Shown here: one piece after another, positions 32,701 to 47,287 of the stretch
Numbering within the stretch: the first letter of the stretch is position 1
Layout: every line of letters begins with the position of its first letter
From: Deltaproteobacteria bacterium
Lineage (GTDB): Bacteria > Desulfobacterota > Desulfuromonadia > Desulfuromonadales > BM103
Length of the DNA stretch: 64,000 nucleotides
Reading direction: 5' to 3'
NCBI GenBank assembly: GCA_024279915.1
Contig: JAJRRB010000073.1
Location: forward strand, 1-64,000
Made by a program: the position numbers and the translations under genes
The notes under the pieces: model-generated
The model's database searches: none
Told to the model about the DNA's origin: nothing
Seen by the model: only the letters and a program-made list of their open reading frames with translations

Positions 32701-35700
32701 GCTGGTAGCCACAGACTGGTCAATCAACAACGAAGTGGCAACATAGGAGCTGGTACCGTTGAATTGTCCCGCACTGGCATATCTGCCAGAAGTTGTCGTA
32801 GTTGCAGACCCATAAGCACGACCGTGGTTGCCCTCAGGTGACAGGTCAATCACCTCGTCTGCGGTATTGTTCCAAGAGATTTCATCCATGCGCATGTGAA
32901 GAACAGAGTCTGGCACACTGGTAATAGTCACCGGCGTATAATCAGAAAAGTTACTACAACCGCTGCCAACACAACGCTCGACAACAAAACCCGTCTCTTC
33001 AACGGAGTTATCTACCCATGTCAGCTCTGCCCATGCTTCAGAAACCCAATCACTCTTCAACGTTGAAGGAGATGGCAGGGTTAAAGGCGCAGCATCTGAA
33101 GTTGGCAGGCTATAATCGCTTGCCCAATACTCCTTCTTCTCAGAATTGATTCGGTAGCGGTAGATTTCACCCTCACAAACTTCAGAATCGACATAACTTA
33201 TGGATTCTGCTGGAAGTTCAATGGGGGTAGCACTTGAGGGATCACAGCCCGACCCCATACAGCGTTGCAGGTTGAAATTAGTTTCACCAATGGTCGTGTC
33301 GTTCCACTCCAGCAAGATTTCTGTGGTGCTTAGTGCTGATGCACGCAGATCACTTGGTGGCTCAGCAGCAACCGTTACTACATTAAGTTCAGACCAGCGG
33401 GACTTTTCACCCAAGGCATTGGAGGCTTGTACACGAAAGCAGTAGGGGCTGCCGGGGGTTAATCCGGAGACAAGGTGTTCGGTTTGATCAGCTCCCTTAA
33501 AAGTTTCAATGGCCCATGACCCGGTATCACTGCATGCGCCGGTTTTTCCCTCTACGATAAAACCGATCTCGTCCAGAGAGTTATCTGACCAGGAGAGATT
33601 CGCCTCGGTATAAAGCAAGGTCGCGGTTAAAGGTGATGGAGCCGGCATAACCGTTGATGTCGTTTTGAAAACGATATAATCCGTATTGTTATCGGCGTTC
33701 ATCGTCACGCCAGCGACAAATGCTTCACCATAAGCGTTAAAGACGACGTCAACCGGATAATCAAGACCACCTGCAACGCCAGCCATGACATTTGCACCGA
33801 CGATCAGACCATTGTGATCGAACATTACGGCGACGATATCATCACCACTGCCACTATCTGTTGCACCGATAATGCAAACAACACCAGAACGGTCAATTGA
33901 CATTGCTGCTGCCGCTTCGTCACTTCCAGTAAAATCGAGGAATTTAGTCCAAACCTCTGTCCCATCGGAAGAATAACGCACTACGACAACATCATGGTTG
34001 CCCGGCCCAACAGATGTTGTGCCAGCAACAACAATATCGTTGTTGATTGGGTCGATAACAATAGAGACCCCGGTATCATAAGATCCACCATCGTAGATCT
34101 TCGGCCATCCCGAGACAACGTTACCGGTCGCTCCATCATACTTTAGAGTAACAATATCCCCGGTAGCACTACTACCGACAGAGTAACCGGTCACATACAA
34201 GTCACCGACACTATCGACGGCGAGAGAGTTCGCGTAGTCACTGGAATTACCCGCACCGTTATAAAAGCGTGGCAACCCACTCCAGGCAAGGCTACCGTCA
34301 TCACCATTGTACTTGGCAACAAAGTAGTCAAAGTCATTACCATTCCAGCTTTTCCCAGCAACAAACACATCACCGTTCAGATCGTAAGCCACTGCAGCAG
34401 GTTGGTCATCACCACCACCCACAGGGCGAGGCAATCGATCGTAGGGGGTCGCTGCCCACAATGGACTTTCAGAGGGACCAGTCGCAGAGTATTTGATGAC
34501 ATAAATATCGTTATCGAGCGTCGCATTCTTACCGTAACCGACCACGACAACATTGTCGGAACCATCAACGGCTGTAGCTACCGATGTAGAGCGATCATCG
34601 TTACCAGAAGGACCATTGTACTGATCTGTCCAGGTTGGCGTGGAACCGCCCGAGGGGTAGCCGAGAGTGAAGATATCATTAGTGTTGCCATCGGCCCCGG
34701 GAAGAGAAGAAAAACCACTAACCACGGCTCGGTTACTGCTGTCTACAGCAACGGATGTCGCATAATCCGATTCGTTATCACCATCGTTGTAACGAGCGCT
34801 CCACTGTTCTGTTGAGGCATCGGTACGGTCCAACTTGATCGTGTAGTAATCATAACCACCTTCAAACTCGAAACTGAAACCTGTAACAACAGGATGATTA
34901 TCCGGCCCTACGGCAATTGCCGCAGGTTCATCGTCACCGGCATCAACACCTGCATAGGTGTGCTGCCACGTTGGTTGTTCATAGCTGACGATGGTTGTCC
35001 GCGCATCAGCCTCGTTACTCCAGGGCGAGTTACCATCATCGGTATTGATGGCTTTGACTCGATAGTAATAACGATGATCCTGAGTCAGTCCTGTATCGTT
35101 GAAGCTGACGGTATTATTGACGAGAGTAGAAACAATGGCCCAGTCCGTGGCGCCATTTTTGCGTTCAACAACAAAGCTCTCTTCGTTGTCAGAATTGTCT
35201 GACCAGGAAAGAGCGATTTCGCTTATGGAAACAGTTGTCGCACTCAAAGACGTTGGGGGATCAAGCATGCCGGCGTTATATTTCACCGCAATATAGTCGA
35301 AGTCATTTAATGGTGTGTCAGACCAACCGGCCACAATCGGGTGGCCATCCGGCGCCAAGCTCAAACCGATCGGATTATCGTCATTTGAGGCCGTGCCATA
35401 AGTTGCAGTCCAGAGCATATTGCCATGCTCCTTGCAGACCTTGTAGGTATGGATATCGTTAAAACCGCCGCCATTGTCGTTGGTAACACTGACTACGAAG
35501 ATATCTCCGGAATTATCACCAACGATATCAACCCCGACATCACTGTTACCATTTTCAGTATTGTATTCAAAGTGCCATCCGTCAGGAGCTGTGTCCTTAC
35601 CACTTGAGGCAGCATAGCGTGTTACAGACAGGTCCTTGCTGGTGACAGGATTTAAGAGAGTGCCCGTAACATAGACATTATCTGCACTGTCCAGCCAAAG

Positions 35701-36675
35701 CGCACGGCCACTATCATCGGCACCATGATCTTTGATCTTTTCCCACTTAAATGCTCCTTCATTTGAAGGATATTTAACGGTGTAATGATCCAGGTCACTG
35801 ACCGCGAGAGTGCCATTATCAACATAGCCGGTAGCAATGACAGCACCTGATTTATCCATCGCCACATCAAGACCTTTGCCATCACCAATGTCGTTATAGC
35901 GCTTATCCCAGCTTTTAATATGAGCAGAGTTGTACTTAACAACGACAAAATCAAAATCCCCAGCAGCATTCTGAGATTCGCCAGTAACAGCAATGTCATT
36001 ATTCTCGGCGGCAATACCATCAGCCCCGACAGCAATAGCTGTTAAACGGTCATGTCCATCGAACTGACTGTTATAATTTACTGACCAGGTCGGTGCACCG
36101 TTAGGAGTTCCATCCGCAATAGGCCCGGTTGGATCGTACTTAATGACAACAAAATCATCCTTTGCGCTAGCATCCTGCATGGTGCCACCGACGTAGATAT
36201 TGTCATTATGATCTACAATAATAGCCGCAGCAAAATCATCTCCGTGACCAGTCCCATCAAATGAGTGTTGCCAGAGAATTGAGCCATCCAAGCCGCTATA
36301 TTTGATGGTATGAATGTCGAAATCAGTGCCATTATCTGCGTAACCAGTAACGATGATATCGTCGTTACCATCGACAACTACAGCCATAGCCACATCTTCG
36401 GCCCCTGCTAAATCGAAGGTTTGTTCCGGCCAGGCCAGGCCGGAACCATCAGACGAGACCTTAATCATACGATAATCTTTGGTGGCGTTGACTGTGAAAC
36501 CAACCAGAATCGTATTCCCCATTGAATCAACAGCCATAGCCTTGGTTTCTTGCTTATTGATTACAGCTGTGTTGTATAGCCATTCGATCGTTCCGCCTGT
36601 GGCAAAGACGGTTGATGGAATACATGTAAACATGAGGGCAGTAAATACCAACAGCCTGCATGCCTTGAATTTCAT
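26758..36675 (-). CDS. Giant secreted protein: beta-propeller, FN3, LamG and DUF2341 domains
   Basis: About 3,300 residues. The reading is open to 36771, but MKFKACRLLVFTALMFTCIP at 36675 gives a textbook signal peptide, so that start is preferred (no strong ribosome-binding site; a GGGGGGAG lies further upstream). Numbering from 36771: propeller repeats of the SBBP type (about 60-490, 600-1040; GDDFAAAIIVDHNDNIYVGG-like units), FN3 modules with SWxDNSxxExxFxVERCxGSGC signatures throughout, three LamG-like domains (about 1290-1490, 1700-1910, 2125-2320; HMDE...DYIRTPL, FEAWV) and a DUF2341 domain (about 2825-3095). It is probably extracellular and able to bind glycans or minerals. It lies directly downstream of the giant cytochrome gene, which suggests a joint role at the cell surface. 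Confidence 0.88.
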   Translation of the reverse strand: MKFKACRLLVFTALMFTCIPSTVFATGGTIEWLYNTAVINKQETKAMAVDSMGNTILVGFTVNATKDYRMIKVSSDGSGLAWPEQTFDLAGAEDVAMAVVVDGNDDIIVTGYADNGTDFDIHTIKYSGLDGSILWQHSFDGTGHGDDFAAAIIVDHNDNIYVGGTMQDASAKDDFVVIKYDPTGPIADGTPNGAPTWSVNYNSQFDGHDRLTAIAVGADGIAAENNDIAVTGESQNAAGDFDFVVVKYNSAHIKSWDKRYNDIGDGKGLDVAMDKSGAVIATGYVDNGTLAVSDLDHYTVKYPSNEGAFKWEKIKDHGADDSGRALWLDSADNVYVTGTLLNPVTSKDLSVTRYAASSGKDTAPDGWHFEYNTENGNSDVGVDIVGDNSGDIFVVSVTNDNGGGFNDIHTYKVCKEHGNMLWTATYGTASNDDNPIGLSLAPDGHPIVAGWSDTPLNDFDYIAVKYNAGMLDPPTSLSATTVSISEIALSWSDNSDNEESFVVERKNGATDWAIVSTLVNNTVSFNDTGLTQDHRYYYRVKAINTDDGNSPWSNEADARTTIVSYEQPTWQHTYAGVDAGDDEPAAIAVGPDNHPVVTGFSFEFEGGYDYYTIKLDRTDASTEQWSARYNDGDNESDYATSVAVDSSNRAVVSGFSSLPGADGNTNDIFTLGYPSGGSTPTWTDQYNGPSGNDDRSTSVATAVDGSDNVVVVGYGKNATLDNDIYVIKYSATGPSESPLWAATPYDRLPRPVGGGDDQPAAVAYDLNGDVFVAGKSWNGNDFDYFVAKYNGDDGSLAWSGLPRFYNGAGNSSDYANSLAVDSVGDLYVTGYSVGSSATGDIVTLKYDGATGNVVSGWPKIYDGGSYDTGVSIVIDPINNDIVVAGTTSVGPGNHDVVVVRYSSDGTEVWTKFLDFTGSDEAAAAMSIDRSGVVCIIGATDSGSGDDIVAVMFDHNGLIVGANVMAGVAGGLDYPVDVVFNAYGEAFVAGVTMNADNNTDYIVFKTTSTVMPAPSPLTATLLYTEANLSWSDNSLDEIGFIVEGKTGACSDTGSWAIETFKGADQTEHLVSGLTPGSPYCFRVQASNALGEKSRWSELNVVTVAAEPPSDLRASALSTTEILLEWNDTTIGETNFNLQRCMGSGCDPSSATPIELPAESISYVDSEVCEGEIYRYRINSEKKEYWASDYSLPTSDAAPLTLPSPSTLKSDWVSEAWAELTWVDNSVEETGFVVERCVGSGCSNFSDYTPVTITSVPDSVLHMRMDEISWNNTADEVIDLSPEGNHGRAYGSATTTTSGRYASAGQFNGTSSYVATSLLIDQSVATSTGATFSAWVNPELTDNVYRYVISTDNNGYDWGLILRNGYWYIANGTTRVYTGIVATMNACQHMTLVFDPVSGVKLYKSDESGTVTWSNASIAFEDSTATVHFGRRGSYNSEFFNGRMDEVAIFNRPLTAVEAGILFEHGLGRYNDRTVVHSTIYNYQVSTSKDAFCDATSLPSNIIQLTTNPPAPSGLIAFSPDSDQVTLKWTDNTTSETSFRIDRCQGSGCSNFTELTTVGPDITFYADTEVCADLNVDLPFNYRVTAIKDADWSSLPSNSSQAVLKKTGTSPTLSVVSRSEDIITLNLNYTSTDLTGFLFSRCDGDATFCADSGNFAAPENLIVTPAGSQLLMHMDEPALDGRTSEVADSSGHGNHGTSYGGMNTGGGKYGRGGSFNGIDDYIRTPLIIDQSATTPGVTFEAWVYPTANNSSYKFVISTENGGYDWSIYQRNSNWYVMNGSNYIDTGVAVSLNAWQHIVAVFQPGVGVRFYKNGSGVLATSAIGYDTNSAGNDYVTIGRMGNTASSANHFVGGIDEVVVYNRVLSTAEVLARYQRPLRYVDSGLPVATPYSYRVKAYKDYPVPGCNWESSFSTVKSTATLAPPPPTDLSFSVVDTTNIKATWLDKATSETDYRIQWCEGTGCTFPASPTVNSTTLGANAQDYLDDAVCEGHDYRYQVRAEKDWVSEAVNTWVTTWTVGTAEVHAKDKSATDSFASEVLSESEISLTWADNNTDEDTYILQRCLNTNVAVDCPVDAVDDQSTFENMDTTIFPTLWFKMDETSWGTPVNSAPGGNNASRRGNAKIVTDSERGNVGYFDGSGDYLQVNHYAGINPSQSITVSVWAKSSGATWDSDYSVMSKRNAFILGPVLGTGNVRFHIFRDGDNWQGKAVNPGVDITQWHQYTAVYDGINLILYVDGIFKGQATYPGTIKADTGYLEIGRDDGNTAAAYNLGGWLDDALIFDEALSSTEVLALYNDEINLSTSNLDTGLTPSTEYFYRLRASKEVEDGCDWPIEWALQSETTMSPPPPTELKVTTINTTQVDINWVDNSGAETAYRVQRCEGLNCFTDDPDDDALLLTDDLAVIEVPDTQFYSDLSAVEGRTYSYRVRAERWITGVKEWGTDWVGPETAKTWDKLAPGNLVATRISEAQIELSWDDSNNDETGYRIERCAGELCNGTDFVEIDVVNGDGAPVTTTLAAGPNINGSFTDLDLWVIHPLTGSTVRALRLPFTGHPAPGSTSLPMTLNTDTNYVVTFEAWSDDGPAINVQNDLHPDTLPEFQHLVSPTPKQFRIAFNSGHADMLSSPILRFFHYNLDRNIFIANIKMVTPSTVIYTDSDSELLPGATYRYRVNTYKTAVEGVNSWPAGPSNIATVATDVVAPSDLSAEAINPTEVVLTWSDNTETETGTEVWRRCDGLLAVCEEPEKSGFVKIDEVGPNIATYRDVDVAKETDYWYKVVARNEGLSSYGGGTWSHYAPVVISPFVANGYYQLTVTHNSQMQDDFGDLRFYDETAQRQLPYWVKESVTGTSATVLIKIRGHNAINMYYGNPEVGYVGSADVFYDKYDFSGTVIDSSEWAEIDAYDAIEQSDGLIIKTSSNSSWNKALISQKTYDRRFQWELYADLTIDADTNGSAANRFALGWLLDQTTFTSPVQFVHSLYWDNTYLRTYEKGSNVYVRRYVNSTDYESRAVLTPTGAEYYLRDGSTPDWTLLKTLDNNVDQVMRVAIGQSSHNATIKSMTVTPTPLPATLGGEVVNVRTDFGFPWPGVESNIATLTTPAPVAPSGLIVMADSDKGVSLKWTDGTADETGFKVERCEGSGCSGFTQIGITSANEDSYYDTFEIEPETYYRYRVRAYKTTTYSWDSAYCVPEQDLTFSARATLLTAVPVSSRMIELVWKENASDEEGYEIEVQIWNGQFVSTGQVIRAEELIKENPTYIDGVEARFVDTVGINVGETYVYRVRPFRGDDKSPYSNNADATPLLSHGDGTCYPLP

Positions 36676-36752
36676 ATAGCCACATTTACAATTCACAGTG
36701 GTCTCTCCAAAACGAACCAAACCAATAATCGATCTCAACATCTCCCCCCTTT

Positions 36753-39700
36753 TCATGGCGTCACCGGCCAAGGCGTTACCTCATTCCATTCCTGTTCATC
36801 CCATGCACCACCTTTAGCTCCAGCAGAGTCATGACACGCCGTTGGGTTGTTCTCATAAAATCTGTACATCCTGGGATATTGACCATAGTCATTTGCACTG
36901 TAGAAGTATTGGTAGGGGACGCCACCACTCTCGATCTGGCCTTTGTGTTGAACATCCAGGCAGTTCGTGCGCATTAAGCGACCAAGACCAGAGCTGTGAG
37001 CATTGTGACATTTGGCACAGGGGAAGGAATGTTCGGTGTTGCTCCCCCACCCTTTGACAGTTTGATGAACTCGCTCCACACTCTGCCAAACGGGCTTTTC
37101 TGTTGGTGAAACGTACTCGTCGGTCAGGTGCTCTTTGGGATGACAACGCAGGCAGAGACCACCAAAAGTTTCGGCATCCTCGGTAACACCTGTATTATTA
37201 TTTCCAAAGGTACTGCGATCGATCTCCACCAGTCTGGTCTTATTTCTCGTGTAATAAGTTGACGCCAAAGGTTGCGCCACATCATCCTTGTAAGGTGATG
37301 TCAGCCAGGTCCCTTTAAGCAACGGTACAGCATAAGCTTTACCATCACCGAGAGACGGGCTGACACCATGCGGATCGTGGCAACCAGAGCAAAGCCCGTT
37401 AATCGGATATAAGGCGTCTACGGTAAGATTTTCGGAGGCCTTGAGATGCCCACCAAGACTATTCATCCCGGAGCGGTAACCAAAGCGATCTTTGTGCCCG
37501 GTCCGACCACCGGCGAAACTTAAGCTGTCGCGATAACTTTGAATTGGCAACTGGGCACCAAAGGTTGAGTTATAGCCCCACGGCTTGGCGCCACGTGCAT
37601 ATGTCTCATGGCAATCGAAGCATTGTGCTGCACCCGGATTCATCGGGTTAACAGCACCCCCTTCATCTTTGACCGCAACAGCCTGGTAGGTAACGTCGTA
37701 ACCGCCTTTTCCAGCCTGTGTCTCTTTCAGATTAGCGCCGCGATAAGTATTATCAAAAGTCTGATAGCTGCTGGTGATGCCACTGGTGTAGGATCCGTGA
37801 GAGTTATGACAGTCGTAACACTGGACATTCACACCACCCTGATCACCATTTGGCAGAGTTCCATCTTCGCCAGTCGCAGTATCCCAGCCACGTTTATTCT
37901 CTACAGCATTACCATGAGCTGAGAAGGCTTTGGTCTGAATTTTCTTAGCGGCATTGGCGATACCTGTGTATTTGCCCCAGTTCGTGGTCCCTTCATCAAG
38001 ATAGCGTTCAGCAATACTAGTTCTATCCCAGGCATACTGACGTGGCGTTTTGCAATCACCGAACACATCGGTATCATTATGCTGCTTACTGTGACAGCCG
38101 AGACAGTGAAGGGTCACATCTTCAACATTTTCTCTTTCTTCCGAAGTGCCAATTGAGGACGTGTTGAAAGTGATCGCCGTCACACCGAGTTCGTGTCTGT
38201 CCGGACGGCCACTTGCGTCCCAAATGACCATGTCATTCTGTCCCTTGGACACAGTTTCGTGAGTCTTGTAGTTGTAGCCAATGTGGTAATCATTATTAAT
38301 TAAACCAAACTCAGTCGCCTCCCAGTGGCATTTGTAACAATGCTCGTTGGTGACATCGATGCCCTGAACATGATGTGACTGGCCACGGAACTGACGCATG
38401 ATGTCTGTGCGTTTGTTGATGACGCCGTCATGACACTTGGTGCAGTCACGCGGTTGGCCAAAACCGAGATGGTTCGGCACAGGTTTCTGCTCATGGCAAT
38501 CCGCACAACCACCGCCCGAACCGTGCCCTTCGGCAAAACCGTGGTTATGGCAGGTGGTACAGCGTCGTCCGGAGCGATGGGTGTCACCATCATCTTTGCG
38601 ATAGTGATCGACATTGGTATGGCAGACATTGCATATACCATTGAACGGGAAGCTGTCTTTGGCGTAATCACGGCCGCTGATTGTCCGTGTAAAAGATACC
38701 GCAGCGCGTTCCAATGGCTTGCCGAACAGGCCGTCGGTCGTAACCGAAATCTCATCCTGAATCATATAGATATTGGTGTCGCCATGTGGATCATGGCAAT
38801 CCCAACAGAATTTCCCACCCTTCCAGACTGTGCCGAGTATTTTATAGGTCGACTCATCTGCCACACTCTCAGGGTAATAGCCTTTGACCGTGACACTGTT
38901 GTAACTGTTAACCAGGATTGGCCGGATTTCACCGTTTAATGGGCCACTGGTCAACTGGAACGACTTGCCAACAAGTTCATCATCGACCCAGCTTTTAGAG
39001 CCATCGGTGAGATGCGTCACGACATGTTTCTGGTCTTCTTTTGAAGCCGTGCTCGTTGTACCCGTGTAATCAACTACAGAAAGGCTCTCCTCATAACCTT
39101 CAAAATGTTTAAAACCAAAATGAGTGGAACTGGCCTTACTGGACCCTGAATGGAATCCGGTTCCGGGGTCATAGCCCAGACGATAGGGATTGTTCTCCTC
39201 ATCGTCTTCAGGCCATGTGTGACAGCTGTTACAACGATCACTGTCATCGTTATCGTGACACTGGAGACAGACTCCCATCATCACATACTGGTTCTTGACA
39301 TCATCTGTTTGATCATCGGTCCAGATTCCGGCACCGGTATTATGGATATGTGCATCTGCCGTATGACAGCCCGTTGGCGGCCACTCTTGAGAGGTCGACA
39401 TACATGAAACGTTCGATTTTGAACCCGTTGAGCTGAATTCGATGTGATCGACAGAATAGGGTGATTCGGTCATACCGACCCTAATTTCACTGATGACATA
39501 AGTCTTGCCACCAGGCCTCGTCCGGACCAGAGAATCATCGAGTTGCACAGCACCACTGGGGTGAGCCGGGTTCTCGTGGCAGGTGCTACACTCGCTGGCG
39601 GCCTGCGGCAGGTGACAGTCGGACGTCAGGCAGGTTTGATTGTTGCCAGCATAGCCGTCATGGTTGATATCGGTGAGATTGGAGAGCTGGAAATCAGTAG

Positions 39701-42467
39701 AAAGGCTATTTGGGTCATCGTGGCACTTCCAGCATTCCTCATCTTTTTGCTCCATGTGACAGTAGACACATTCTTTCTCGAAGCGCTTTTCAAACTGTGG
39801 ATGTTCCTTGAGCCGGTATGGATTGGTCACATTGTCGTGTAAGACCTCATTGTCGTGACAGTACCAGCAGGGGTTGCCGGGGAAATCAGCTGGAGGGTTG
39901 CCACTTGGATAGTTACCCTCCGAGGCCATCCGACCATGTCCACTGGTCTTCCACTCAACCATGTTGATCTTGGCTCTGATTCCATTAAATGCACCATAAT
40001 CATCTACATCTGTTACCTGGTCACCATGACAGGTCAGACAGAGAATCTCCCCGTTGCGACTATCACCCCACTTTGGCAGAGGATCGGGATGGCCATGACA
40101 GGCGGTATCGGAACAGGTTTTGTTCAAACGATCGTAATCACCACCATCTTTGAAAATCACATCTTTTTCAGTGTTTACGTGAAATTCAGGAATAATATGA
40201 CCGACTTCTGACATCAGCCCGTCGGGTATCTCACCATCATGACATCCGACTGTATTACAAGATCCAACAACCGTCTCCCGATGGCAGTTTTCGCAGGCAA
40301 ACTCTGTTTCAAGGTGGCGCATATGAGAATTTGCCCGATCTGTACCTGGACCGGTGTTTTCATACATCGGCGTCGCCATCTTCCACTGATTCTCAGGGGT
40401 GACGACGGGCACAGTGTCTGGATGACAGCTTGCAGCTGAACAATTGTCGTCCTGCTCATGACCATGACAGGAATCACACCGGGCTTTGCCACTATCCCAT
40501 GGAAAATCTCTAACTTGCGGGACCTTGGTGCCATCACTGTGACAATAAATGTTTAAGCACGTCATTTCGACATCGTTATAGCTCGGGGGAGGATAGCCTA
40601 AGATGTTCGATTTTGGGCCGAAAGAGACATCTACCTTCTCATTGACATGAGTTCCACTATCAAACTTGAGCTCGCTAAATTCATCAGTCGTCTGATAATG
40701 GCACTCATAGCATTCGTACTTACGTATCCAGTGATCGTTAGCCAAGCGAAAGTGCCCGTTAGAATCCATCTGGGTATATTTTTCCTCACTTCCAGGACAG
40801 TCATCTTCCTCAAAACAGTCTTTGTTGCCTGGACGCCCTTTGTGACATGAAGAACAATCGTAGCTATCAACATCTGACCAGTCAGGAATTCTCGGAATAC
40901 TGGTTGTCTGGTTTCCCAGGCTCTCTTCAATACCGTCGTCATTCAGGTCAGCGTAATGACAGCTGAACTCTTCATTGGCATCACAGGATGGTGAGGTGTC
41001 TGCTCCGGCACGCCCATCTGTATGACAATAAATATTTGAACATTCATTCGTGGTCGCGTTGTAGACACCAGTAACGTTGAGCGTGACGTCTTTTGTCAGA
41101 TTGATGTGAAGGGCAGGATTTGAAATTGTGTCGCTACCAGAGACTGTGTCGGCGTGACATTTCTCACAAGCATAGGCATAAGCCGCCGGATCAATATGCC
41201 GACCATGCGGTGCACTCATTGCCTGACTACCACCCGCAGGATCATGACAGGAATCACACTGCATTCCGGCCCCGCCCCAGGTCGGCTGGCTGTAAGCATT
41301 GGTTCCAGCTAAAGGGTCAGCATTGCTGTGACAATAGAGGTTGTTGCAGGTTCCATAGACGGGAGTATCACAATAGTCCGTTTCCTCATCGTAGCAACTG
41401 GCCTCATCCCCACCTTCTTCACTGTAGGTGGCGCTGCTGACGATGGGGTTGCTTGCATCAAAACGGATTTCCGACAGGCTGTTTCTGTGGATGGATGTCT
41501 CGTGACAGGTTCTACAGGCAAAATCCAGAGTCAGTATAGCAGAGTTGAAATGTTCATCATGGCTGGCGACTGCGGGCTCTTCAGGATGGCACCCACCACA
41601 ACTCGCCTTGAAGCCCTGATTGTGCGTGTGACATCCGATGCAATCATCGCGGTTATAATGATCAAAGCCGCCCGTATTGTTGGCCGAGGCATTGTAATTA
41701 TGGAATTTGTTCGAGGTATGGCAGGATTCGCAAATATTGGTCGATTCGTTGTCCGGCACCCGTTTGTCATTACCAAAATCGGATTCACCCTTTTGGGTTG
41801 ATAGGAATGAAACACTGCCGTGGCCCTCAATCGGGAAGCTGTCTGTTGATTCCGAGTCGGTGACCTCAATGTCTGTTTTGATGCGTTTGATGTTTCCGGT
41901 TTGCTTAGCGTGACAGGTGCTACAAGAGAATTCACCATACTTTGAGTTCGGTACACCCCAGCCGTTTTCTTCGTTCCATTTCAACGATCCCGTTGTGTAC
42001 GAGTTGTGAAGCAGGCGATTGTAAGGGACCACAGATGCGACGATCTGTTCCTGCAAGCCGTTGTTGGTCACCAGGTCATCAATAAAAGTCACCTTGACCT
42101 GATATGTTGTAAAGTTTTGCAGACCTTCAATTTGATAAGTAAACGTACTGACCTGATGATCGAGAACAACTGTTTCGACGCTCTGATCCGTCCAGTCTGT
42201 CCCGCTTTGCGCCCAGGCAACTATCAGGGTACAGTTATTATCGCTGTCTTCTGAATAAGGAGCATGGAGTGCCAGGGTCTCATGGCCGGGGATAATGTTG
42301 ATCTCAGCAGGGGTTACTTCATCTAACGCCAGGGCGTGAGTAGGAGCCAGGAGAAGTAAAGCGCTGCCGATCAATAAAAGAGTACTGAAGAGATAGCTGG
42401 CAAAACTTGCCACACAAGATCTGTCTCCTCCAGCTGTCTTCGATGAAAATACATTTTCCCCAATCAT
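36753..42467 (-). CDS. Giant multiheme c-type cytochrome, about 37 heme motifs
   Basis: About 1,904 residues from the ATG at 42467, chosen because GGGGGAAAG precedes it; a GTG reading extends to 42506. A signal sequence (SYLFSTLLLIGSALLLLAPT) and an FN3-like region come first. I count 30 CX2CH and 7 CX4CH motifs (such as CNNLYCH, CSNIYCH, CSAASCH). Alternating CX4CH...CX2CH pairs are the Geobacter domain described as GSu_C4xC__C2xCH. Two further cysteines with longer spacing to CH (CX7CH, CX11CH) may or may not bind heme. It would be exported and matured by the Ccm/Ccs system and act in extracellular electron transfer. Its 3' end overlaps the longest reading of the giant FN3/LamG gene. Confidence 0.93.
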   Translation of the reverse strand: MIGENVFSSKTAGGDRSCVASFASYLFSTLLLIGSALLLLAPTHALALDEVTPAEINIIPGHETLALHAPYSEDSDNNCTLIVAWAQSGTDWTDQSVETVVLDHQVSTFTYQIEGLQNFTTYQVKVTFIDDLVTNNGLQEQIVASVVPYNRLLHNSYTTGSLKWNEENGWGVPNSKYGEFSCSTCHAKQTGNIKRIKTDIEVTDSESTDSFPIEGHGSVSFLSTQKGESDFGNDKRVPDNESTNICESCHTSNKFHNYNASANNTGGFDHYNRDDCIGCHTHNQGFKASCGGCHPEEPAVASHDEHFNSAILTLDFACRTCHETSIHRNSLSEIRFDASNPIVSSATYSEEGGDEASCYDEETDYCDTPVYGTCNNLYCHSNADPLAGTNAYSQPTWGGAGMQCDSCHDPAGGSQAMSAPHGRHIDPAAYAYACEKCHADTVSGSDTISNPALHINLTKDVTLNVTGVYNATTNECSNIYCHTDGRAGADTSPSCDANEEFSCHYADLNDDGIEESLGNQTTSIPRIPDWSDVDSYDCSSCHKGRPGNKDCFEEDDCPGSEEKYTQMDSNGHFRLANDHWIRKYECYECHYQTTDEFSELKFDSGTHVNEKVDVSFGPKSNILGYPPPSYNDVEMTCLNIYCHSDGTKVPQVRDFPWDSGKARCDSCHGHEQDDNCSAASCHPDTVPVVTPENQWKMATPMYENTGPGTDRANSHMRHLETEFACENCHRETVVGSCNTVGCHDGEIPDGLMSEVGHIIPEFHVNTEKDVIFKDGGDYDRLNKTCSDTACHGHPDPLPKWGDSRNGEILCLTCHGDQVTDVDDYGAFNGIRAKINMVEWKTSGHGRMASEGNYPSGNPPADFPGNPCWYCHDNEVLHDNVTNPYRLKEHPQFEKRFEKECVYCHMEQKDEECWKCHDDPNSLSTDFQLSNLTDINHDGYAGNNQTCLTSDCHLPQAASECSTCHENPAHPSGAVQLDDSLVRTRPGGKTYVISEIRVGMTESPYSVDHIEFSSTGSKSNVSCMSTSQEWPPTGCHTADAHIHNTGAGIWTDDQTDDVKNQYVMMGVCLQCHDNDDSDRCNSCHTWPEDDEENNPYRLGYDPGTGFHSGSSKASSTHFGFKHFEGYEESLSVVDYTGTTSTASKEDQKHVVTHLTDGSKSWVDDELVGKSFQLTSGPLNGEIRPILVNSYNSVTVKGYYPESVADESTYKILGTVWKGGKFCWDCHDPHGDTNIYMIQDEISVTTDGLFGKPLERAAVSFTRTISGRDYAKDSFPFNGICNVCHTNVDHYRKDDGDTHRSGRRCTTCHNHGFAEGHGSGGGCADCHEQKPVPNHLGFGQPRDCTKCHDGVINKRTDIMRQFRGQSHHVQGIDVTNEHCYKCHWEATEFGLINNDYHIGYNYKTHETVSKGQNDMVIWDASGRPDRHELGVTAITFNTSSIGTSEERENVEDVTLHCLGCHSKQHNDTDVFGDCKTPRQYAWDRTSIAERYLDEGTTNWGKYTGIANAAKKIQTKAFSAHGNAVENKRGWDTATGEDGTLPNGDQGGVNVQCYDCHNSHGSYTSGITSSYQTFDNTYRGANLKETQAGKGGYDVTYQAVAVKDEGGAVNPMNPGAAQCFDCHETYARGAKPWGYNSTFGAQLPIQSYRDSLSFAGGRTGHKDRFGYRSGMNSLGGHLKASENLTVDALYPINGLCSGCHDPHGVSPSLGDGKAYAVPLLKGTWLTSPYKDDVAQPLASTYYTRNKTRLVEIDRSTFGNNNTGVTEDAETFGGLCLRCHPKEHLTDEYVSPTEKPVWQSVERVHQTVKGWGSNTEHSFPCAKCHNAHSSGLGRLMRTNCLDVQHKGQIESGGVPYQYFYSANDYGQYPRMYRFYENNPTACHDSAGAKGGAWDEQEWNEVTPWPVTP

Positions 42468-42817
42468 CAACACTTTCCCCCATAATGTCTGTTCCAGCCT
42501 TAACACGTTTTCTGCAACGCTATCTCAACATGGACTTACCTACGTATGTCTCCAACAATTCACAAAAAAACATCGTCACACGCCTAAACCATTAACAAGC
42601 AACAATTAATTTAATCTAACACTAAGCTTGTCACGAATTAGCTGTGTTGATGACCTGCAATCAGTGCAATATGAATGCCGACTAATTTGCTATGGTTAAT
42701 TTTTATTTGTCATATAATAGAACCAGCCGAACAATGTGGTAAGGGTCGTCAGAATAATGAACAGAGGGGATTTCTAACTGAGATGATGTAAACGAAAAAC
42801 TAACCAGCAGGGCCAGA
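42468..42817. other. Non-coding stretch upstream of the giant cytochrome
   Basis: AT-rich and without a convincing gene. It should hold the promoter of the cytochrome operon. I looked for a GEMM (c-di-GMP) riboswitch, which often precedes Geobacter cytochromes, and did not find its conserved core. Confidence 0.4.
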
Positions 42818-42882: not shown

Positions 42883-43659
42883 TTACTTCTTATCTCCACG
42901 AATACCGATACAGACCGTTTCAAAAGGGATATCCCGGCCACTATTGGCAAGCGCCTGCTTGGCCATCATGACCAAACCGTTGCAGCAAGGGACTTCCATG
43001 TGAGCCACGGTCAGACTCTTGATATTGCTCTGCGTAATCATTGCAGTCAGCTTTTCAACATAAGGTTCGGTATTATCCAGCTTCGGACAGGCAATCGCCA
43101 GAGCCTTGCCCTTAAGCAACTCTTCCTGGAAATCTGCGTAGGCAAAAGGGACACAATCCGCAGTCAGAAGCACGTCGGCATTCTGGAAAAAGGGTGCAGT
43201 CGGCGGTACCAGGTGTAATTGAATAGGCCATTGGGCCAGGCGTGAGGGACGGGAAGCATCATCGGCAGAGTCGTCAGATGCTGGCTTTTCTAGGTTCATT
43301 ACCCGCGCCGAAGGGCAACCACCAGCAGCTGGTGCAGCAAAGCTTTTCACAGCAGCTGAGGGACAACCACCTGTAGCCGGAGCCGTTGGCTCTTCGTAAT
43401 GAGAGAGCGGCGCACGGCCAATCTCTTTGAGATGATCATCCACAGCAGTCTCATCGTACTCATCGGCTTCGCGTTCTACAACAGAAATGGCACCGAGCGG
43501 GCAATCACCGAGGCACGCACCCAGTCCGTCACAGAGGTTATCGGAAATCAATTTTGCCTTGCCATCGATTATTTGAATTGCACCTTCTGCACATGACGGT
43601 ACACAGTCACCGCAGCCGTTGCACTTTTCTTCATCAATTTCGACCATTTGTCTGATCAT
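42883..43659 (-). CDS. 2x[4Fe-4S] ferredoxin-domain protein with GGCPSA repeats
   Basis: The 258-residue protein has an N-terminal dicluster ferredoxin (CNGCGDCVPSCAEGAI and CDGLGACLGDCPLGAI). The linker carries two copies of GGCPSAxV (GGCPSAAVKSF and GGCPSARVMNL). The C-terminal domain (about 150-258) has Cys in LLTADCVPFAY, IACPKLDN and VPCCNGLVMMA. ATG follows GGAGACG. It is probably a cytoplasmic redox partner; the C-terminal domain is a known but uncharacterised ferredoxin companion. An FNR-type box at 43730-43743 lies in its promoter, so it seems co-regulated with the cytochrome/lipoprotein operon immediately upstream. Confidence 0.85.
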   Translation of the reverse strand: MIRQMVEIDEEKCNGCGDCVPSCAEGAIQIIDGKAKLISDNLCDGLGACLGDCPLGAISVVEREADEYDETAVDDHLKEIGRAPLSHYEEPTAPATGGCPSAAVKSFAAPAAGGCPSARVMNLEKPASDDSADDASRPSRLAQWPIQLHLVPPTAPFFQNADVLLTADCVPFAYADFQEELLKGKALAIACPKLDNTEPYVEKLTAMITQSNIKSLTVAHMEVPCCNGLVMMAKQALANSGRDIPFETVCIGIRGDKK

Positions 43660-43729
43660 CTGTACGTCTCCATATATGTAGGTTCCGTTATTGTGAAAAT
43701 AACTCTACACACTCAGAGTCAATCTTACT

Positions 43730-43743
43730 TTGACTGAGGTCAA
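43730..43743 (-). promoter_or_regulatory. FNR-like box upstream of the ferredoxin gene
   Basis: TTGACTGAGGTCAA is a perfect dyad of the TTGAN6TCAA type, centred about 77 bases before the ferredoxin start. A hexamer resembling -10 (TAGAGT, 43707-43702) begins 22 bases after the box, the spacing of a class II FNR-activated promoter (box at -41.5). Confidence 0.6.
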
Positions 43744-44124
43744 TCAGAAGAAATAATGCCAGAGTAGATCCAATCGACCACGCATGATCAGATACTGGCC
43801 GGAAAAACGCATAATTTCACGAACCTTTTCGCGGTATTCCGGCTTGTAGCAATGCACAGAACAATGCTTGCAGAGCGGTTTCTCTTCAAGTGGACAATGC
43901 AGGCGACGTTCAAAAGCATAGAGAAGAAACTCACAACATTCTTTACAGACAGGATATTTCTGCAGTGACAATTGATGGAACTCGGACTCGTCAGTGGTGA
44001 TGATCGACCTGTCGTCTTTATGTTTCTCTCGACAGTAGACCGCAGTGAATTGCAGCAGCACCTTGAGATCCTTGATCTCTTTTGGTGTCAGTGGCTGGAA
44101 GGGTTTCATCGATTCTTTAGTCAT
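43744..44124 (-). CDS. ygbA: YgbA_NO (nitrous oxide-stimulated promoter) family protein
   Basis: The 126-residue Cys-rich protein has family motifs KVLLQFTAVYCREKHK, YPVCKECCEFLLYAFERRLHCP and KPLCKHCSVHCYKPEYREKV. The Cys set may bind a metal or cluster. Members are induced by reactive nitrogen species (NsrR-controlled ygbA in E. coli) and aid recovery from nitrosative stress. The gene overlaps the HAO-like cytochrome gene by 8 bases, tying the two together. The function of the family is still poorly defined. Confidence 0.85.
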   Translation of the reverse strand: MTKESMKPFQPLTPKEIKDLKVLLQFTAVYCREKHKDDRSIITTDESEFHQLSLQKYPVCKECCEFLLYAFERRLHCPLEEKPLCKHCSVHCYKPEYREKVREIMRFSGQYLIMRGRLDLLWHYFF

Positions 44125-45418
44125 TATTGTCTGGCAACTTTTCCAGCAATGTCTGTTTACGCTGGCTGTATTCTTCGGCGGTAATCGCGCCTCGATCCCG
44201 TTTGCGTTTCAAAACCTGTAATTCTTCCTCTAAAGGTTGGTAAGCACTCCCCTCTTCCCTCAAGGACACCTCACTTCGACTCACTTCACTTTTTTGCAAG
44301 CGTGCCGCTTCAGCCTTGATATCTACCAAGGTCATTTTCATTTCAGCATTACCGTACCAGTGCGTATAAGCCGGATTCTGATGAAAGGCGCCTTTGACCG
44401 TCTTGGCAAAATCGTATTTTTTCATTTTGAAAAAGAGGCGCTCTACATGGGAGATATCCTCATAAAGCATCTGGCCATCGAGAACCAGTTCCTGACCACG
44501 CAACGGATGTTCTGGACGATTCTGCAAAGATGGCACAAGTAGATCGCGATCAGCAAGATCCAGGATAATAGCTTCAGCTTCCTTAATCAGCTCTCGACTC
44601 TGTTCAAGAATGACATCGGCACTCTCCAGTTCACGCTCTGCAAATGAGAGTGCATGACATTGGGTACAGATGCTGATCATTTCCTGGCGACGACCGGCTC
44701 GCTCCTCAATAGGTGGCTGTATCATCGCCGGAGACATCGTGATGCCAAAAGAGACATCGTGCGAGCCCCCTGTCATATGGCAACTTTGGCAGGTCGGACC
44801 GACACTTTCGCCAAGGGCGTCGAAAAGCACACCATGGCGCGAGGTCTGCCACATCTCCCACTGTGGATGATCGGGCCCCATATGACAGGTCGCGCAACTT
44901 GCCGGGCTACGCACAACGGCGAGATCGGTAATGTGATTGGTATGACAGGAGGCGCAGGAGTTCTCCACCTGATGGCAACGATTGCAACCAAGAGCCGCCA
45001 TCTCGGATGTCTGGGTCAAAAAACGAGCACATTGTATTGAAGTTTTCGGCTGCGTACTGCCCTCTTCATGGCAGAAACGGCACTCACGCGGATCACGACT
45101 CTCGAGATTACGCGTACAACCCCAGCCGGTGTGCAGTCCCAGACCATGCTTACTTGAGACATGTTCGTGATAAGCCTTTTCATGGCAACGACCACAGACT
45201 TTGGCATCGGCAGGCGCGTCTCCTTTGAGAATGGCCTCATGATCTGTGCCGTGACACGCAGAGCAGCCAATAGCGGGCGCATGCGAACTCGCCTGCCACT
45301 GTTTAACGGCGGCAGGGGTTTCCATTTGATGACATTCAAGACACTCATCAGCAAAAGCTATCGTTGAGAAGAAGAGGGACAGACAACATAAACAGAACAG
45401 GCGCAGTAAACGGTTCAT
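44117..45418 (-). CDS. Multiheme cytochrome c, hydroxylamine oxidoreductase-like, with SHOCT tail
   Basis: The 433-residue exported protein has a signal peptide (LLRLFCLCCLSLFFSTIAFA) and nine CX2CH motifs: CLECH, CSACH, CGRCH, CRFCH, CNRCH, CASCH, CATCH, CQSCH, CTQCH. The stretch CATCHMGPDHPQWEMWQTSRHG is the HAO-family signature. Octaheme HAO relatives oxidise hydroxylamine or reduce nitrite/NO/hydroxylamine; the direction cannot be told here. A SHOCT domain (LQVLKRKRDRGAITAEEYSQ, about 400-425) sits at the C-terminus, which is unusual for this family. It overlaps the lipoprotein gene by 4 bases and ygbA by 8. Confidence 0.88.
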   Translation of the reverse strand: MNRLLRLFCLCCLSLFFSTIAFADECLECHQMETPAAVKQWQASSHAPAIGCSACHGTDHEAILKGDAPADAKVCGRCHEKAYHEHVSSKHGLGLHTGWGCTRNLESRDPRECRFCHEEGSTQPKTSIQCARFLTQTSEMAALGCNRCHQVENSCASCHTNHITDLAVVRSPASCATCHMGPDHPQWEMWQTSRHGVLFDALGESVGPTCQSCHMTGGSHDVSFGITMSPAMIQPPIEERAGRRQEMISICTQCHALSFAERELESADVILEQSRELIKEAEAIILDLADRDLLVPSLQNRPEHPLRGQELVLDGQMLYEDISHVERLFFKMKKYDFAKTVKGAFHQNPAYTHWYGNAEMKMTLVDIKAEAARLQKSEVSRSEVSLREEGSAYQPLEEELQVLKRKRDRGAITAEEYSQRKQTLLEKLPDNND

Positions 45419-46497
45419 CGATTTTCCTCTCGCAGGAGTTTCTGGTATTCATCCGCTGTAATCAGACCCTCAAAACGCCAACGACGCAAGGTCCACGCTC
45501 TTTCACTATAAGCCTCCTGTGGTTCACTCCGGAGTCCATTGCCACGCCACAGGATATTATTCACTGCTAGCAAAAAACTTCCGTCAGGAAGAATCTGCAG
45601 CTGCGCATCTCCCCCCCAGTCAGCTAACAATTCATAACCATCATAAAGACGTCCGTTTACAAATCGATAATGATCAGCTACAGGTCGACTGGCAACTTCT
45701 TCCACCGTTGGCCAGAGGTCAAGTTTCTGCACACTATCCGCAGTACGAACCGCAACGGACTGTGCAGAGTTATCCCAGGCAACCTGTACTCTCTGCAGCG
45801 GCATCTCTTGTAGAGAACGCCCGCTGCCAACTTGCCAATTTTTATAAAGAAGCTTCAGATAGGGTGAAAACTGTGGTGGTTCATGTAAGTGAACATAAAC
45901 CAGCTCGTCGCCGGTTGGAGAAAAAGCCACCGGCAAAACATCTCGCATAATTCCCGCCAGTTTTTTCACTGTGGACACTCTCAAAGTGGTATCGGAGAGG
46001 ACGGTTGCTATGACATCTTCCCCAACCACCTTGTAGAGGATCTGTTGCAGGTCAGCACCAAAAGAGAAGATTTTGAGGGCAAACCCCATAACCAGGAGAT
46101 CGCCACGATCACTCCATGTCATCTGGTTGAATGCAACAGGCAGCAAAACTTCGTGCAACAATTCACCTTGAATGGAATAAAGAGTCAGGCGGGTTTCATA
46201 ATCTGCGACAGGGAAAGCCACGGCCAAAGTTAAACCATCAGCGCTCCAGGCCAGAGCAACAGGATGATCAGGGGAGAGATTTTTAGAGGAACTGGACTCA
46301 AGATCATGAAGGTACAAGCCATTTCTGGCTAGAGCAATTTTGTCACCTTCCTGATTCGCAGCGAAGGTTCCAGCCTTATTGATAGCAGCAACGCGAATCA
46401 ACGGATTGTCATTGATCGATTGTGGCGGTGGACCAGCAATACAACCAAACAAGAGGATGCTGAGAGGCAGGACAACAGCAGTAAGAAAAGTTTTCAT
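45415..46497 (-). CDS. Beta-propeller lipoprotein with C-terminal SHOCT domain
   Basis: The 360-residue protein has a lipobox (LSILLFGC, Cys19) for lipid anchoring and WD40/TolB-like propeller repeats (VALAWSADGLTLAVAF, NQMTWSDRGDLLVMGF, PVAFSPTGDELVYVH). A final SHOCT-type segment (RAWTLRRWRFEGLITADEYQ) resembles the tail of the adjacent HAO-like cytochrome. Shared tails and a 4-base gene overlap suggest the two proteins assemble together at the membrane. No ribosome-binding site precedes the ATG, and the predicted promoter places transcription start at or next to it, so the message may be leaderless. Confidence 0.8.
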   Translation of the reverse strand: MKTFLTAVVLPLSILLFGCIAGPPPQSINDNPLIRVAAINKAGTFAANQEGDKIALARNGLYLHDLESSSSKNLSPDHPVALAWSADGLTLAVAFPVADYETRLTLYSIQGELLHEVLLPVAFNQMTWSDRGDLLVMGFALKIFSFGADLQQILYKVVGEDVIATVLSDTTLRVSTVKKLAGIMRDVLPVAFSPTGDELVYVHLHEPPQFSPYLKLLYKNWQVGSGRSLQEMPLQRVQVAWDNSAQSVAVRTADSVQKLDLWPTVEEVASRPVADHYRFVNGRLYDGYELLADWGGDAQLQILPDGSFLLAVNNILWRGNGLRSEPQEAYSERAWTLRRWRFEGLITADEYQKLLREENR

Positions 46498-46531
46498 GTG
46501 AACAAGATAGCAGATTTAAGAATGCAATGGA

Positions 46532-46545
46532 TTGACGAGCATCAA
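46532..46545 (-). promoter_or_regulatory. FNR-like box upstream of the lipoprotein/cytochrome operon
   Basis: TTGACGAGCATCAA (plus strand) matches TTGATN4ATCAA at nine of ten positions. On the minus strand a TATCTT -10-like hexamer (46509-46504) starts exactly 22 bases after it, the class II FNR geometry. The neighbouring Crp/Fnr gene is the likely source of its regulator. Confidence 0.65.
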
Positions 46546-46609
46546 ATATTGTTACGTGAAGCAGTAGTCAAGCCTGGTTGCTCTTGCTACGCGCCATACG
46601 CTACAACTT

Positions 46610-47287
46610 CTATCCCTCCTTACACTTCTCAGCAAGCTCTTCCAGACGGCTAAAATCGAGAATCTCAACTTTTTTCCCCGACACAGCGATCAAATCATCC
46701 TCGGAGAGTTTACGCAGAGTGCGTGAAAGAGTTTCACCAACAGTGCCCAGATTAGAGGCCAACTGGCTTTTGGAGATCGGTAGTTCGACGGTCTGCTTTG
46801 TACCGTGGGATAATTCCATCAGGTAACGAGCCAAGCGAGAAGGAACATCCTTAAAGGTCAGATCCTCGATCTGATTGGCGAACTGACGGAGGAATCTTGA
46901 GAGACCAGCAATCATATTGATTGCAATCCGACCATTGTCCATCAGCAGGCCAAGGAACCCATCCTTGGGTAGAAAAAACAATTTTGAAACCTGAAGCGGT
47001 TCAGCATAAGCTGGGTACAAACCATCACCAAAGATAGCCGCTTCAGCGAATGTTCCTCCGGGATGAATAACATGTAGAATGCGCTCTTTCCCATCCGGGG
47101 AGAGTTTATAGACTTTGACCTTACCATCCAACACAACAAAAAAACCGGCGGCCTCTTCACCATCAGAAAAGAGCAGTTCTCCACGTGGATGCTCGCGAAT
47201 GCGGGCAATGCCCATCAAAGCGTCAAGATCTTGATCAGAAAGGCCAGCAAAAAAGGGACTATGTTTCAGTATCTGACGATAATTCAT
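46610..47287 (-). CDS. Crp/Fnr-family transcriptional regulator
   Basis: The 225-residue protein has an N-terminal cyclic-nucleotide-type sensor domain (about 15-120, with PRGELLFSDGEEAAGFFVVL) and a C-terminal winged helix. The recognition helix reads TVGETLSRTLRKL, with the E..SR arrangement of FNR-type proteins that bind TTGAN6TCAA. The FNR cluster cysteines are absent (a single Cys near the C-terminus), so it does not sense oxygen as FNR does; a heme/NO-type or ligand-free sensor like Dnr/NnrR is possible. Two matching boxes flank the neighbouring genes. ATG follows AAGGTG. Confidence 0.9.
   Translation of the reverse strand: MNYRQILKHSPFFAGLSDQDLDALMGIARIREHPRGELLFSDGEEAAGFFVVLDGKVKVYKLSPDGKERILHVIHPGGTFAEAAIFGDGLYPAYAEPLQVSKLFFLPKDGFLGLLMDNGRIAINMIAGLSRFLRQFANQIEDLTFKDVPSRLARYLMELSHGTKQTVELPISKSQLASNLGTVGETLSRTLRKLSEDDLIAVSGKKVEILDFSRLEELAEKCKEG

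Follow-up and report, generated by a model that had tools for sequence, protein, structure and literature searches.

A five-gene locus with a nonaheme cytochrome of the HAO family

The window analyzed here comprises the first 64,000 nucleotides (nt) of contig JAJRRB010000073.1 (assembly GCA_024279915.1), from a bacterium of the order Desulfuromonadales. On its minus strand at 42883-47287 lies a set of five genes whose central pair encodes a lipoprotein and a multiheme cytochrome of the hydroxylamine oxidoreductase (HAO) family. The lipoprotein and cytochrome genes overlap by 4 bases and the cytochrome and ygbA genes by 8; location and overlaps agree with those given in a first-pass annotation of the sequence. 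The features of the locus are as follows (aa, amino acids).

42883-47287, minus strand: five-gene set in the order regulator, lipoprotein, cytochrome, YgbA, ferredoxin
46610-47287, minus strand: DNR-like regulator of the CRP/FNR family, 225 aa (Pfam cNMP_binding and HTH_Crp_2)
46532-46545, no strand: palindrome TTGACGAGCATCAA, HcpR/DNR-type, 34 nt ahead of the lipoprotein start
45415-46497, minus strand: lipoprotein with beta-propeller and SHOCT-type tail (lipobox by eye, AlphaFold2, Foldseek)
45421-45504, minus strand: SHOCT-type tail of the lipoprotein, about aa 332-359 (profile homology to the cytochrome tail)
44117-45418, minus strand: HAO-family cytochrome with nine CxxCH motifs (Pfam, PDB sequence matches, model, Foldseek)
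45014-45130, minus strand: insert that carries the ninth heme motif of the cytochrome, about aa 97-135 (alignment)
45068-45082, minus strand: ninth motif C113-x-x-C-H117 within the insert, flanked by invariant C101 and C130 (alignment)
44144-44227, minus strand: SHOCT tail of the cytochrome, aa 398-425 (PF09851)
43744-44124, minus strand: YgbA_NO protein, 126 aa (PF11756, NF007714)
43730-43743, no strand: perfect palindrome TTGACTGAGGTCAA, HcpR-type, 70 nt ahead of the ferredoxin start
42883-43659, minus strand: 2x[4Fe-4S] ferredoxin with a C-terminal domain, 258 aa (Pfam 4Fe-4S)

The cytochrome has an N-terminus that by eye resembles a signal peptide, matches the Pfam family Multi-haem_cyto (PF13447, E 3e-22), and in a phmmer search against PDB sequences finds chains of HAO, KsHAOr and hydrazine dehydrogenase (HDH) at E 1e-36 to 3e-25. 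None of the NCBIfam models names it at cut-off, the nearest being hydrazine dehydrogenase with 96.8 of 900 bits. The first-pass annotation had recognized an HAO-like protein, correctly as to family, and had framed it in terms of octaheme cytochromes; nine CxxCH motifs were counted, and nine are found in 28/28 aligned orthologues of the order. Eight of these align with the HAO hemes in HAO order, and the extra one lies between HAO hemes 3 and 4. In a wider alignment, residues C113, C116, H117, C101 and C130 of the insert are present in 33/33 nonaheme rows and 0/17 octaheme rows. H86, a candidate distal ligand, is present in 33/33 and 2/17, respectively. Two quick trees, of 36 nonaheme rows together with 37 or 34 octaheme rows, set the nonaheme rows apart on one side of a branch; its Shimodaira-Hasegawa-like approximate likelihood ratio (SH-aLRT) support is 99, or 83 without the insert and tail.

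HAO-like proteins with nine CxxCH motifs and a hydrophobic C-terminal stretch also occur in Rokubacteria, Gemmatimonadetes and Dadabacteria (loci L119, L122, L123, L124 and L128-L133). The Rokubacteria type was considered for the same branch and excluded, the extra motif lying about 80 residues ahead of the HAO set in the three full frames inspected (L119, L122, L130). A second HAO-like protein of the host genome has eight CxxCH motifs (L213, 1090-2634; G000:C91) and is 35% identical to the cytochrome over part of its length. Among the matches listed in open-access literature on HAO, nonaheme cytochromes and SHOCT, no title or abstract start describes this branch, an absence that is no proof of novelty. 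In a 2025 study the HAOs of Desulfobacterota fall into large clades that surround some anammox HAOs, and excerpts of its text contain no match to nonaheme or SHOCT (PMC12758564).

The predicted structure supports the family assignment. The cytochrome model has a predicted local distance difference test score (pLDDT) of 87, with well-predicted C-terminal helices at 394-408 and 414-426 and lower values for the heme insert (blocks 61-68). A Foldseek search with this model returned 11 matches at E<=0.001, ten of them HAO/HDH chains at E 4.6e-14 to 2.2e-12 (entries 6hif, 6h5l, 4n4j, 6t5e, 4n4n, 4n4m, 1fgj and 4fas; query TM 0.62-0.66); the eleventh, 4qo5, is titled "hypothetical multiheme protein". 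The cytochrome combines the CxxCH order of HAO, its catalytic Asp-His pair and, in the predicted model, its fold. That pair, D267-H268 of NeHAO, corresponds to D183-H184 and is invariant in 33/33 nonaheme and 17/17 octaheme rows; the NeHAO residue numbers and roles agree with the aligned positions.

The cross-linking tyrosine that distinguishes oxidative HAO and HDH is missing from the cytochrome by alignment. At the place of NeHAO Y467 stands H353, a histidine in 33/33 nonaheme rows. The register comes from a conserved glycine: the NeHAO tyrosine lies three residues before it, as does a tyrosine in KsHAO and HDH, and H353 lies three residues before G356. A HMMER alignment to KsHAO gives a rival register, in which Y355 stands opposite the KsHAO tyrosine, and for this reason the placement of H353 is one that we infer. 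Y355 itself was set aside as the cross-linking residue, since it is I or L in 4/28 orthologues and the Gly-minus-3 register leads to H353.

An HAO-type protein without the tyrosine cross-link works reductively in the case of KsHAOr (PMC12485887) and in a proposal for Nautilia (PMC3701875; see also PMC8940962), and because the cytochrome appears by alignment to have no such oxidation-favoring cross-link, electrons would flow inward along its hemes. The reverse assignment, in which the protein oxidizes hydroxylamine or hydrazine as the nitrifier and anammox enzymes do, could draw on family membership, on the fold and on hydrazine dehydrogenase as the nearest NCBIfam model, far under cut-off as that match is. 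We consider it highly improbable, given the histidine in all 33 aligned nonaheme rows and a regulatory motif shared with Hcp, which has been called a hydroxylamine or NO reductase (PMC11633192, PMC3701875).

The lipoprotein partner and the SHOCT-type tails

At E<=1e-60 the cytochrome was found in 28/136 genomes of the order and 56/277 of the class (29/82 genera). A scan of named genomes, confined to its 80 best loci and so a lower bound on carriers, added, among the matches listed, Geomonas, Geomesophilobacter, Geobacter sp. OR-1, a Desulfobulbaceae metagenome-assembled genome (MAG), Nitrospirota MAGs and one MAG labelled Myxococcales. In all 65 distinct loci with >=1300 nt upstream, the lipoprotein gene lies directly upstream of the cytochrome gene on the same strand, at <=150 nt in 64 and at 161 nt in one. 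No lipoprotein match at E<1e-5 was found in the stretches examined around 47 octaheme loci (L109-L155).

The remaining genes are less constant. Among 68 distinct nonaheme loci, an uneven sample of bacteria, YgbA is present in at least 26, the ferredoxin in at least 23 and the regulator in at least 19 at a strict threshold, all lower bounds as some loci end at contig edges. These counts make lipoprotein and cytochrome the core, and YgbA, ferredoxin and regulator accessories in Desulfuromonadales and a few others. Of the five-gene module first proposed, the lipoprotein-cytochrome pair is supported and the wider composition is not. YgbA, assigned here by PF11756 (E 5e-19, 69.2 bits against a cut-off of 25) and NF007714 (E 9e-34, above cut-off), occurs in 95/134 genomes of the order, well beyond the cytochrome carriers. 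An apparent lipoprotein-cytochrome fusion in locus L041 was rejected: its frame of 855 aa results from an overlapping extension in another reading frame, and a gene of its own encodes the lipoprotein at that locus.

The lipobox cysteine of the lipoprotein was recognized by eye, and C19 is nearly invariant among orthologues. Its AlphaFold2 model (pLDDT 91.5) consists of a beta-propeller followed by two helices, a SHOCT-like helix pair at the end. Foldseek with this model retrieved generic propellers, with no telling relative among the 50 matches listed.

Both proteins end in SHOCT-type tails, as the first-pass annotation had noticed. The cytochrome tail matches SHOCT (PF09851) at E 1.1e-7 with 31.8 bits against a cut-off of 27, and 22/28 cytochrome members match at E<=0.01. 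The lipoprotein tail of the window is below Pfam detection, and PF09851 is found at E<=1 in 6/29 aligned lipoprotein members. When profiles of the two tails were compared by hhalign, they aligned with a probability of 95.6% and E 1.3e-8, and on this sequence evidence the two tails are homologous. Tails that beat every shuffled tail number 31/71 for the lipoprotein and 38/65 for the cytochrome, against 0/47 octaheme C-termini. Scored with the other family's model at a cut of 1% of shuffles, 52/67 lipoprotein and 60/68 cytochrome tails from distinct loci pass; two of the eight cytochrome tails under the cut belong to broken or masked genes. PF09851 has a single match at E<=0.1 in the 3.83-Mb host genome, and that match is the tail of the cytochrome itself. 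With no other SHOCT match there, the occurrence of two tails of this type in the same operon is not a background effect.

What the tails do is a separate question. It had been suggested that they dock the cytochrome to the lipoprotein in one complex, and two observations speak against this. When oligomerization by SHOCT was put to the test in a published study, the result did not support it (PMC3581485). Furthermore, four genomes (G028, G088, G090 and G093) keep the lipoprotein next to ygbA, at gaps of 44-208 nt, with no cytochrome gene between the two and none found at E<=1e-60 genome-wide (G088 is 86% and G093 80% complete). With the model of the cytochrome tail, all four of these lipoprotein tails still score higher than any shuffled one. 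Either the lipoprotein is useful without the cytochrome, or the cytochrome was lost lately. The tails may instead serve something other than docking, such as localization or the binding of a third protein, which is compatible with any of the functions weighed in this report and to which we give an even chance. In favor of docking are the share of tails that pass the 1% cut where no octaheme C-terminus beats its shuffles, the lack of any other SHOCT match in the host genome, and the chance that the cytochrome losses are recent. Loci L170, L171, L172 and L173 are lipoprotein-YgbA pairs of this kind, with the cytochrome missing.

HcpR-type operators and neighboring genes

The HcpR consensus wyTTGACnnnnGTCAArw was described at hcp and frdX in Geobacter and Desulfuromonas (PMC1274295), and the motif ahead of the lipoprotein and ferredoxin genes equals it. 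The sites of TTGAYNNNNRTCAA in the window number only two, at 43730 ahead of the ferredoxin gene and at 46532 ahead of the lipoprotein gene. Within the order, a perfect TTGAYNNNNRTCAA lies <=200 nt upstream of 20/28 lipoprotein genes (the distance being 33-36 nt for 16 of them) and 15/21 ferredoxin genes, and of 5/25 ygbA, 0/19 regulator and 0/29 cytochrome genes; the expectation from mononucleotide shuffles is 0.000 to 0.001. It is also upstream of hcp in 7/7 loci (the host and six selected relatives), and in these seven stretches no homologue of the ferredoxin, the regulator or YgbA was found at E<=1e-5. As in an HcpR regulon, the palindrome TTGACnnnnGTCAA precedes both hcp and the ferredoxin gene. 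The exact TTGACNNNNGTCAA occurs six times in the host genome: once ahead of the ferredoxin gene (43730), once about 160-180 nt ahead of hcp, and four times inside long open frames.

DNR is a sensor of nitric oxide (NO). The regulator of the locus has the DNR protein 3dkw as its top match among PDB sequences (E 6e-34), and by descent it may belong with either DNR or HcpR. An FNR-type regulator had been proposed; the CRP/FNR family holds, and the protein has one cysteine in all, near the C-terminus, and so no FNR-type cysteine cluster. This DNR-like neighbor probably acts, as an activator, at the TTGAYNNNNRTCAA sites. Autoregulation of its own gene was rejected, with 0/19 promoters carrying a site at <=1 mismatch.

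The ferredoxin, initially taken for the cytoplasmic partner of the cytochrome, is possibly FrdX. Its own hcp-type operator makes Hcp its likelier partner, and the original pairing is not supported. In a Bacteroidota MAG (L126, 2969 onwards), two genes for octaheme HAO-like proteins have a close homologue of the ferredoxin (E 4e-102) in their vicinity, which hints at a wider link between this type of ferredoxin and HAO-like proteins.

Three further features of the window deserve mention.

36753-42506, minus strand: multiheme protein of 1917 aa, directly beside the five-gene set at 0.4 kb from the ferredoxin gene (30 CxxCH motifs; GSu_C4xC__C2xCH and Cytochrome_C7 matches)
26758-36771, minus strand: 3337-aa frame overlapping the 30-CxxCH frame (Laminin_G_3, fn3 and DUF2341 matches; scanned 26761-36741)
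7458-9751, minus strand: FHA-domain protein adjoining a trypsin-like protease

The 3337-aa frame is possibly a surface partner of the 30-CxxCH cytochrome. Multiheme cytochromes abound in Geobacterales and Desulfuromonadales, and a large one stands 0.4 kb from the ferredoxin gene; most Geobacterales copies of the nonaheme gene have no HcpR-type operator. These points would suit a general electron-transfer protein for extracellular or metal respiration, one that kept the HAO fold without nitrogen chemistry. With the catalytic Asp-His pair invariant and the hcp-type operator present in Desulfuromonadales, such a role is improbable. Reactive-nitrogen chemistry, as the first-pass annotation had envisaged, is supported by the HAO family and fold, the DNR-like regulator, the hcp-type operator, YgbA in the operon and an enrichment of nitrate reductase among carriers.

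Proposed role and comparison with known systems

The host genome, 98.45% complete, encodes the nitrate reductase NarG as well as Hcp, the latter found in 119/134 genomes of the order. No NrfA (PF02335, E<=1e-20), NapA (E<=1e-50) or NirS was found in it, and NirK, NirB, octaheme nitrite reductase and a quinol-side donor were not searched for; the only PF02239 match, a 112-position stretch in a 3963-aa frame, is not NirS. Among these 134 genomes, nitrate reductase is present in 15/27 cytochrome carriers vs 30/107 others (Fisher p 0.011). For NrfA at E<1e-100 the shares are 6/27 and 49/107 (p 0.03). Both p values are uncorrected for shared descent or multiple tests. With two contig-edge carriers added, p becomes 0.002 for nitrate reductase and 0.054 for NrfA.

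Our hypothesis is that the cytochrome acts in the periplasm as a nitrogen-oxide reductase, of the HAO type but working in the reductive direction, together with Hcp and in a manner that resembles reverse-HURM, a reading to which we give an even chance of being right. The cytochrome would be exported and, judging from its nine invariant CxxCH motifs, would bind nine c-type hemes. Nitrite, NO or hydroxylamine would be reduced at the HAO-type catalytic heme beside Asp183-His184, and the ninth heme may serve as an extra entry or exit point for electrons. Strict pairing suggests that the lipoprotein serves this one cytochrome at the membrane, and the simplest role would be to anchor it or to provide a platform for assembly. 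In Desulfuromonadales, where the TTGAYNNNNRTCAA sites were observed, the lipoprotein-cytochrome-ygbA operon and the ferredoxin gene would be switched on together with hcp, probably by the neighboring DNR-like protein. In a nitrate-reducing host, the substrates would be the nitrite that NarG produces, or the NO and hydroxylamine that arise when nitrite is partially reduced; the cytochrome outside and Hcp inside could together take nitrite, NO and hydroxylamine to ammonium, with the ferredoxin probably feeding Hcp.

In favor of this hypothesis count the HAO family and fold, the invariant Asp-His pair, the histidine at the tyrosine place, the strict pairing, the branch support, the operators shared with hcp and the gene content of the host and of the carriers. 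Several results weigh against it. NeHAO Y334 is without a conserved counterpart in the cytochrome, by alignment and by orthologue consensus. The difference in NrfA fades to the p of 0.054 given above with the edge carriers and to 0.13 with any PF02335 match, and among nitrate reducers alone it is 3/15 carriers vs 14/30 others (p 0.11). By the models used, 12/27 carriers have neither NarG nor NapA, so nitrite respiration is not the sole role. The operator counts are inflated and not independent, as several genomes are near-identical kin. Over the whole host genome the palindrome shows no excess over the reversed control sequence (6 vs 7), and hence only the placement of sites speaks. Outside the order most lipoprotein genes lack the site: in promoters mostly from Geobacterales and Nitrospirota, the perfect operator is present in 15/62, and 8 of the 15 repeat loci of the order. 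The nar region examined contains no exact TTGACNNNNGTCAA, leaving a place for nar in the regulon unsupported.

Some of these results fit a narrower function, in which the cytochrome removes periplasmic NO or hydroxylamine under nitrosative stress and has no role in nitrite respiration. The hcp-type operator, YgbA in the operon, the 12/27 carriers without NarG or NapA and the commonness of Hcp in the order all accord with detoxification. The higher share of nitrate reducers among carriers (p 0.011) argues against it, as does the lower frequency of NrfA (p 0.03, weaker under other definitions), and we regard a purely detoxifying role as possible but doubtful. A more specific form of the reductive hypothesis starts from those nitrate-reducing Desulfuromonadales that have no NrfA. 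The nonaheme branch, bound SHOCT to SHOCT to its propeller lipoprotein, would be their missing reductase from nitrite to hydroxylamine (or ammonium) and would complete an NO-regulated reverse-HURM with Hcp. In this full form it is an unlikely proposal; were it true, it would show what SHOCT does in an enzyme complex outside the cytoplasm.

The reductive hypothesis makes the cytochrome a testable candidate for an overlooked step from nitrite to ammonium. Geobacteraceae reduce nitrate to ammonium and produce N2O as well, with Hcp-Hcr proposed as the main route of NO reduction (PMC11633192). The cytochrome is not mentioned in excerpts of that study. Cultured members of the group carry it (Geomonas, Geomesophilobacter and Geobacter sp. 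OR-1), and its role is therefore directly testable. A ninth motif fixed in one HAO branch, together with a lipoprotein partner and matching tails, offers a handle on how this family changed direction and location, and the paired tails a handle on SHOCT function.

Compared with octaheme HAO and HDH (1fgj, 4n4j, 6hif), the cytochrome shares eight of its nine heme motifs, the Asp-His pair and the fold, and differs in the histidine at the tyrosine place, the extra heme motif, the SHOCT tail and the operon. KsHAOr of Kuenenia (kustc0457/0458, PDB 6h5l) likewise has the HAO fold and no tyrosine cross-link and is reductive, converting nitrite to NO; unlike our protein it is octaheme and has Kustc0457 as redox partner (PMC12485887), and its chain, alignable to about 10 residues from its own end, has no SHOCT tail. 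NrfA, the pentaheme nitrite reductase, may have its functional counterpart here in nitrate reducers of the order; it belongs to another family, and fold matches of the cytochrome to it are weak (E 0.2 or worse). The HcpR/FrdX/Hcp regulon of Geobacter and Desulfuromonas has the same operator at hcp and at a ferredoxin gene, and counts cytochrome c-like genes among its hypothetical members; the nonaheme cytochrome and its lipoprotein are not named in excerpts of that study (PMC1274295).

A close likeness is to the reverse-HURM of Nautilia profundicola and some Campylobacter, which comprises HaoA, Har/Hcp and a 4Fe-4S protein (PMC3701875). HaoA is octaheme in that description, whereas nine CxxCH motifs are found here, and the SHOCT tail, propeller lipoprotein and HcpR-type operators of the present locus go unmentioned for Nautilia in the same excerpts. 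Shared by both are an HAO homologue without the critical tyrosine, Hcp, a 4Fe-4S candidate donor to Hcp and a nitrate reductase, in a host where NrfA was not found. In gene content, leaving the cM552/NapC donor and the product aside, the host gene set matches the reverse-HURM layout.

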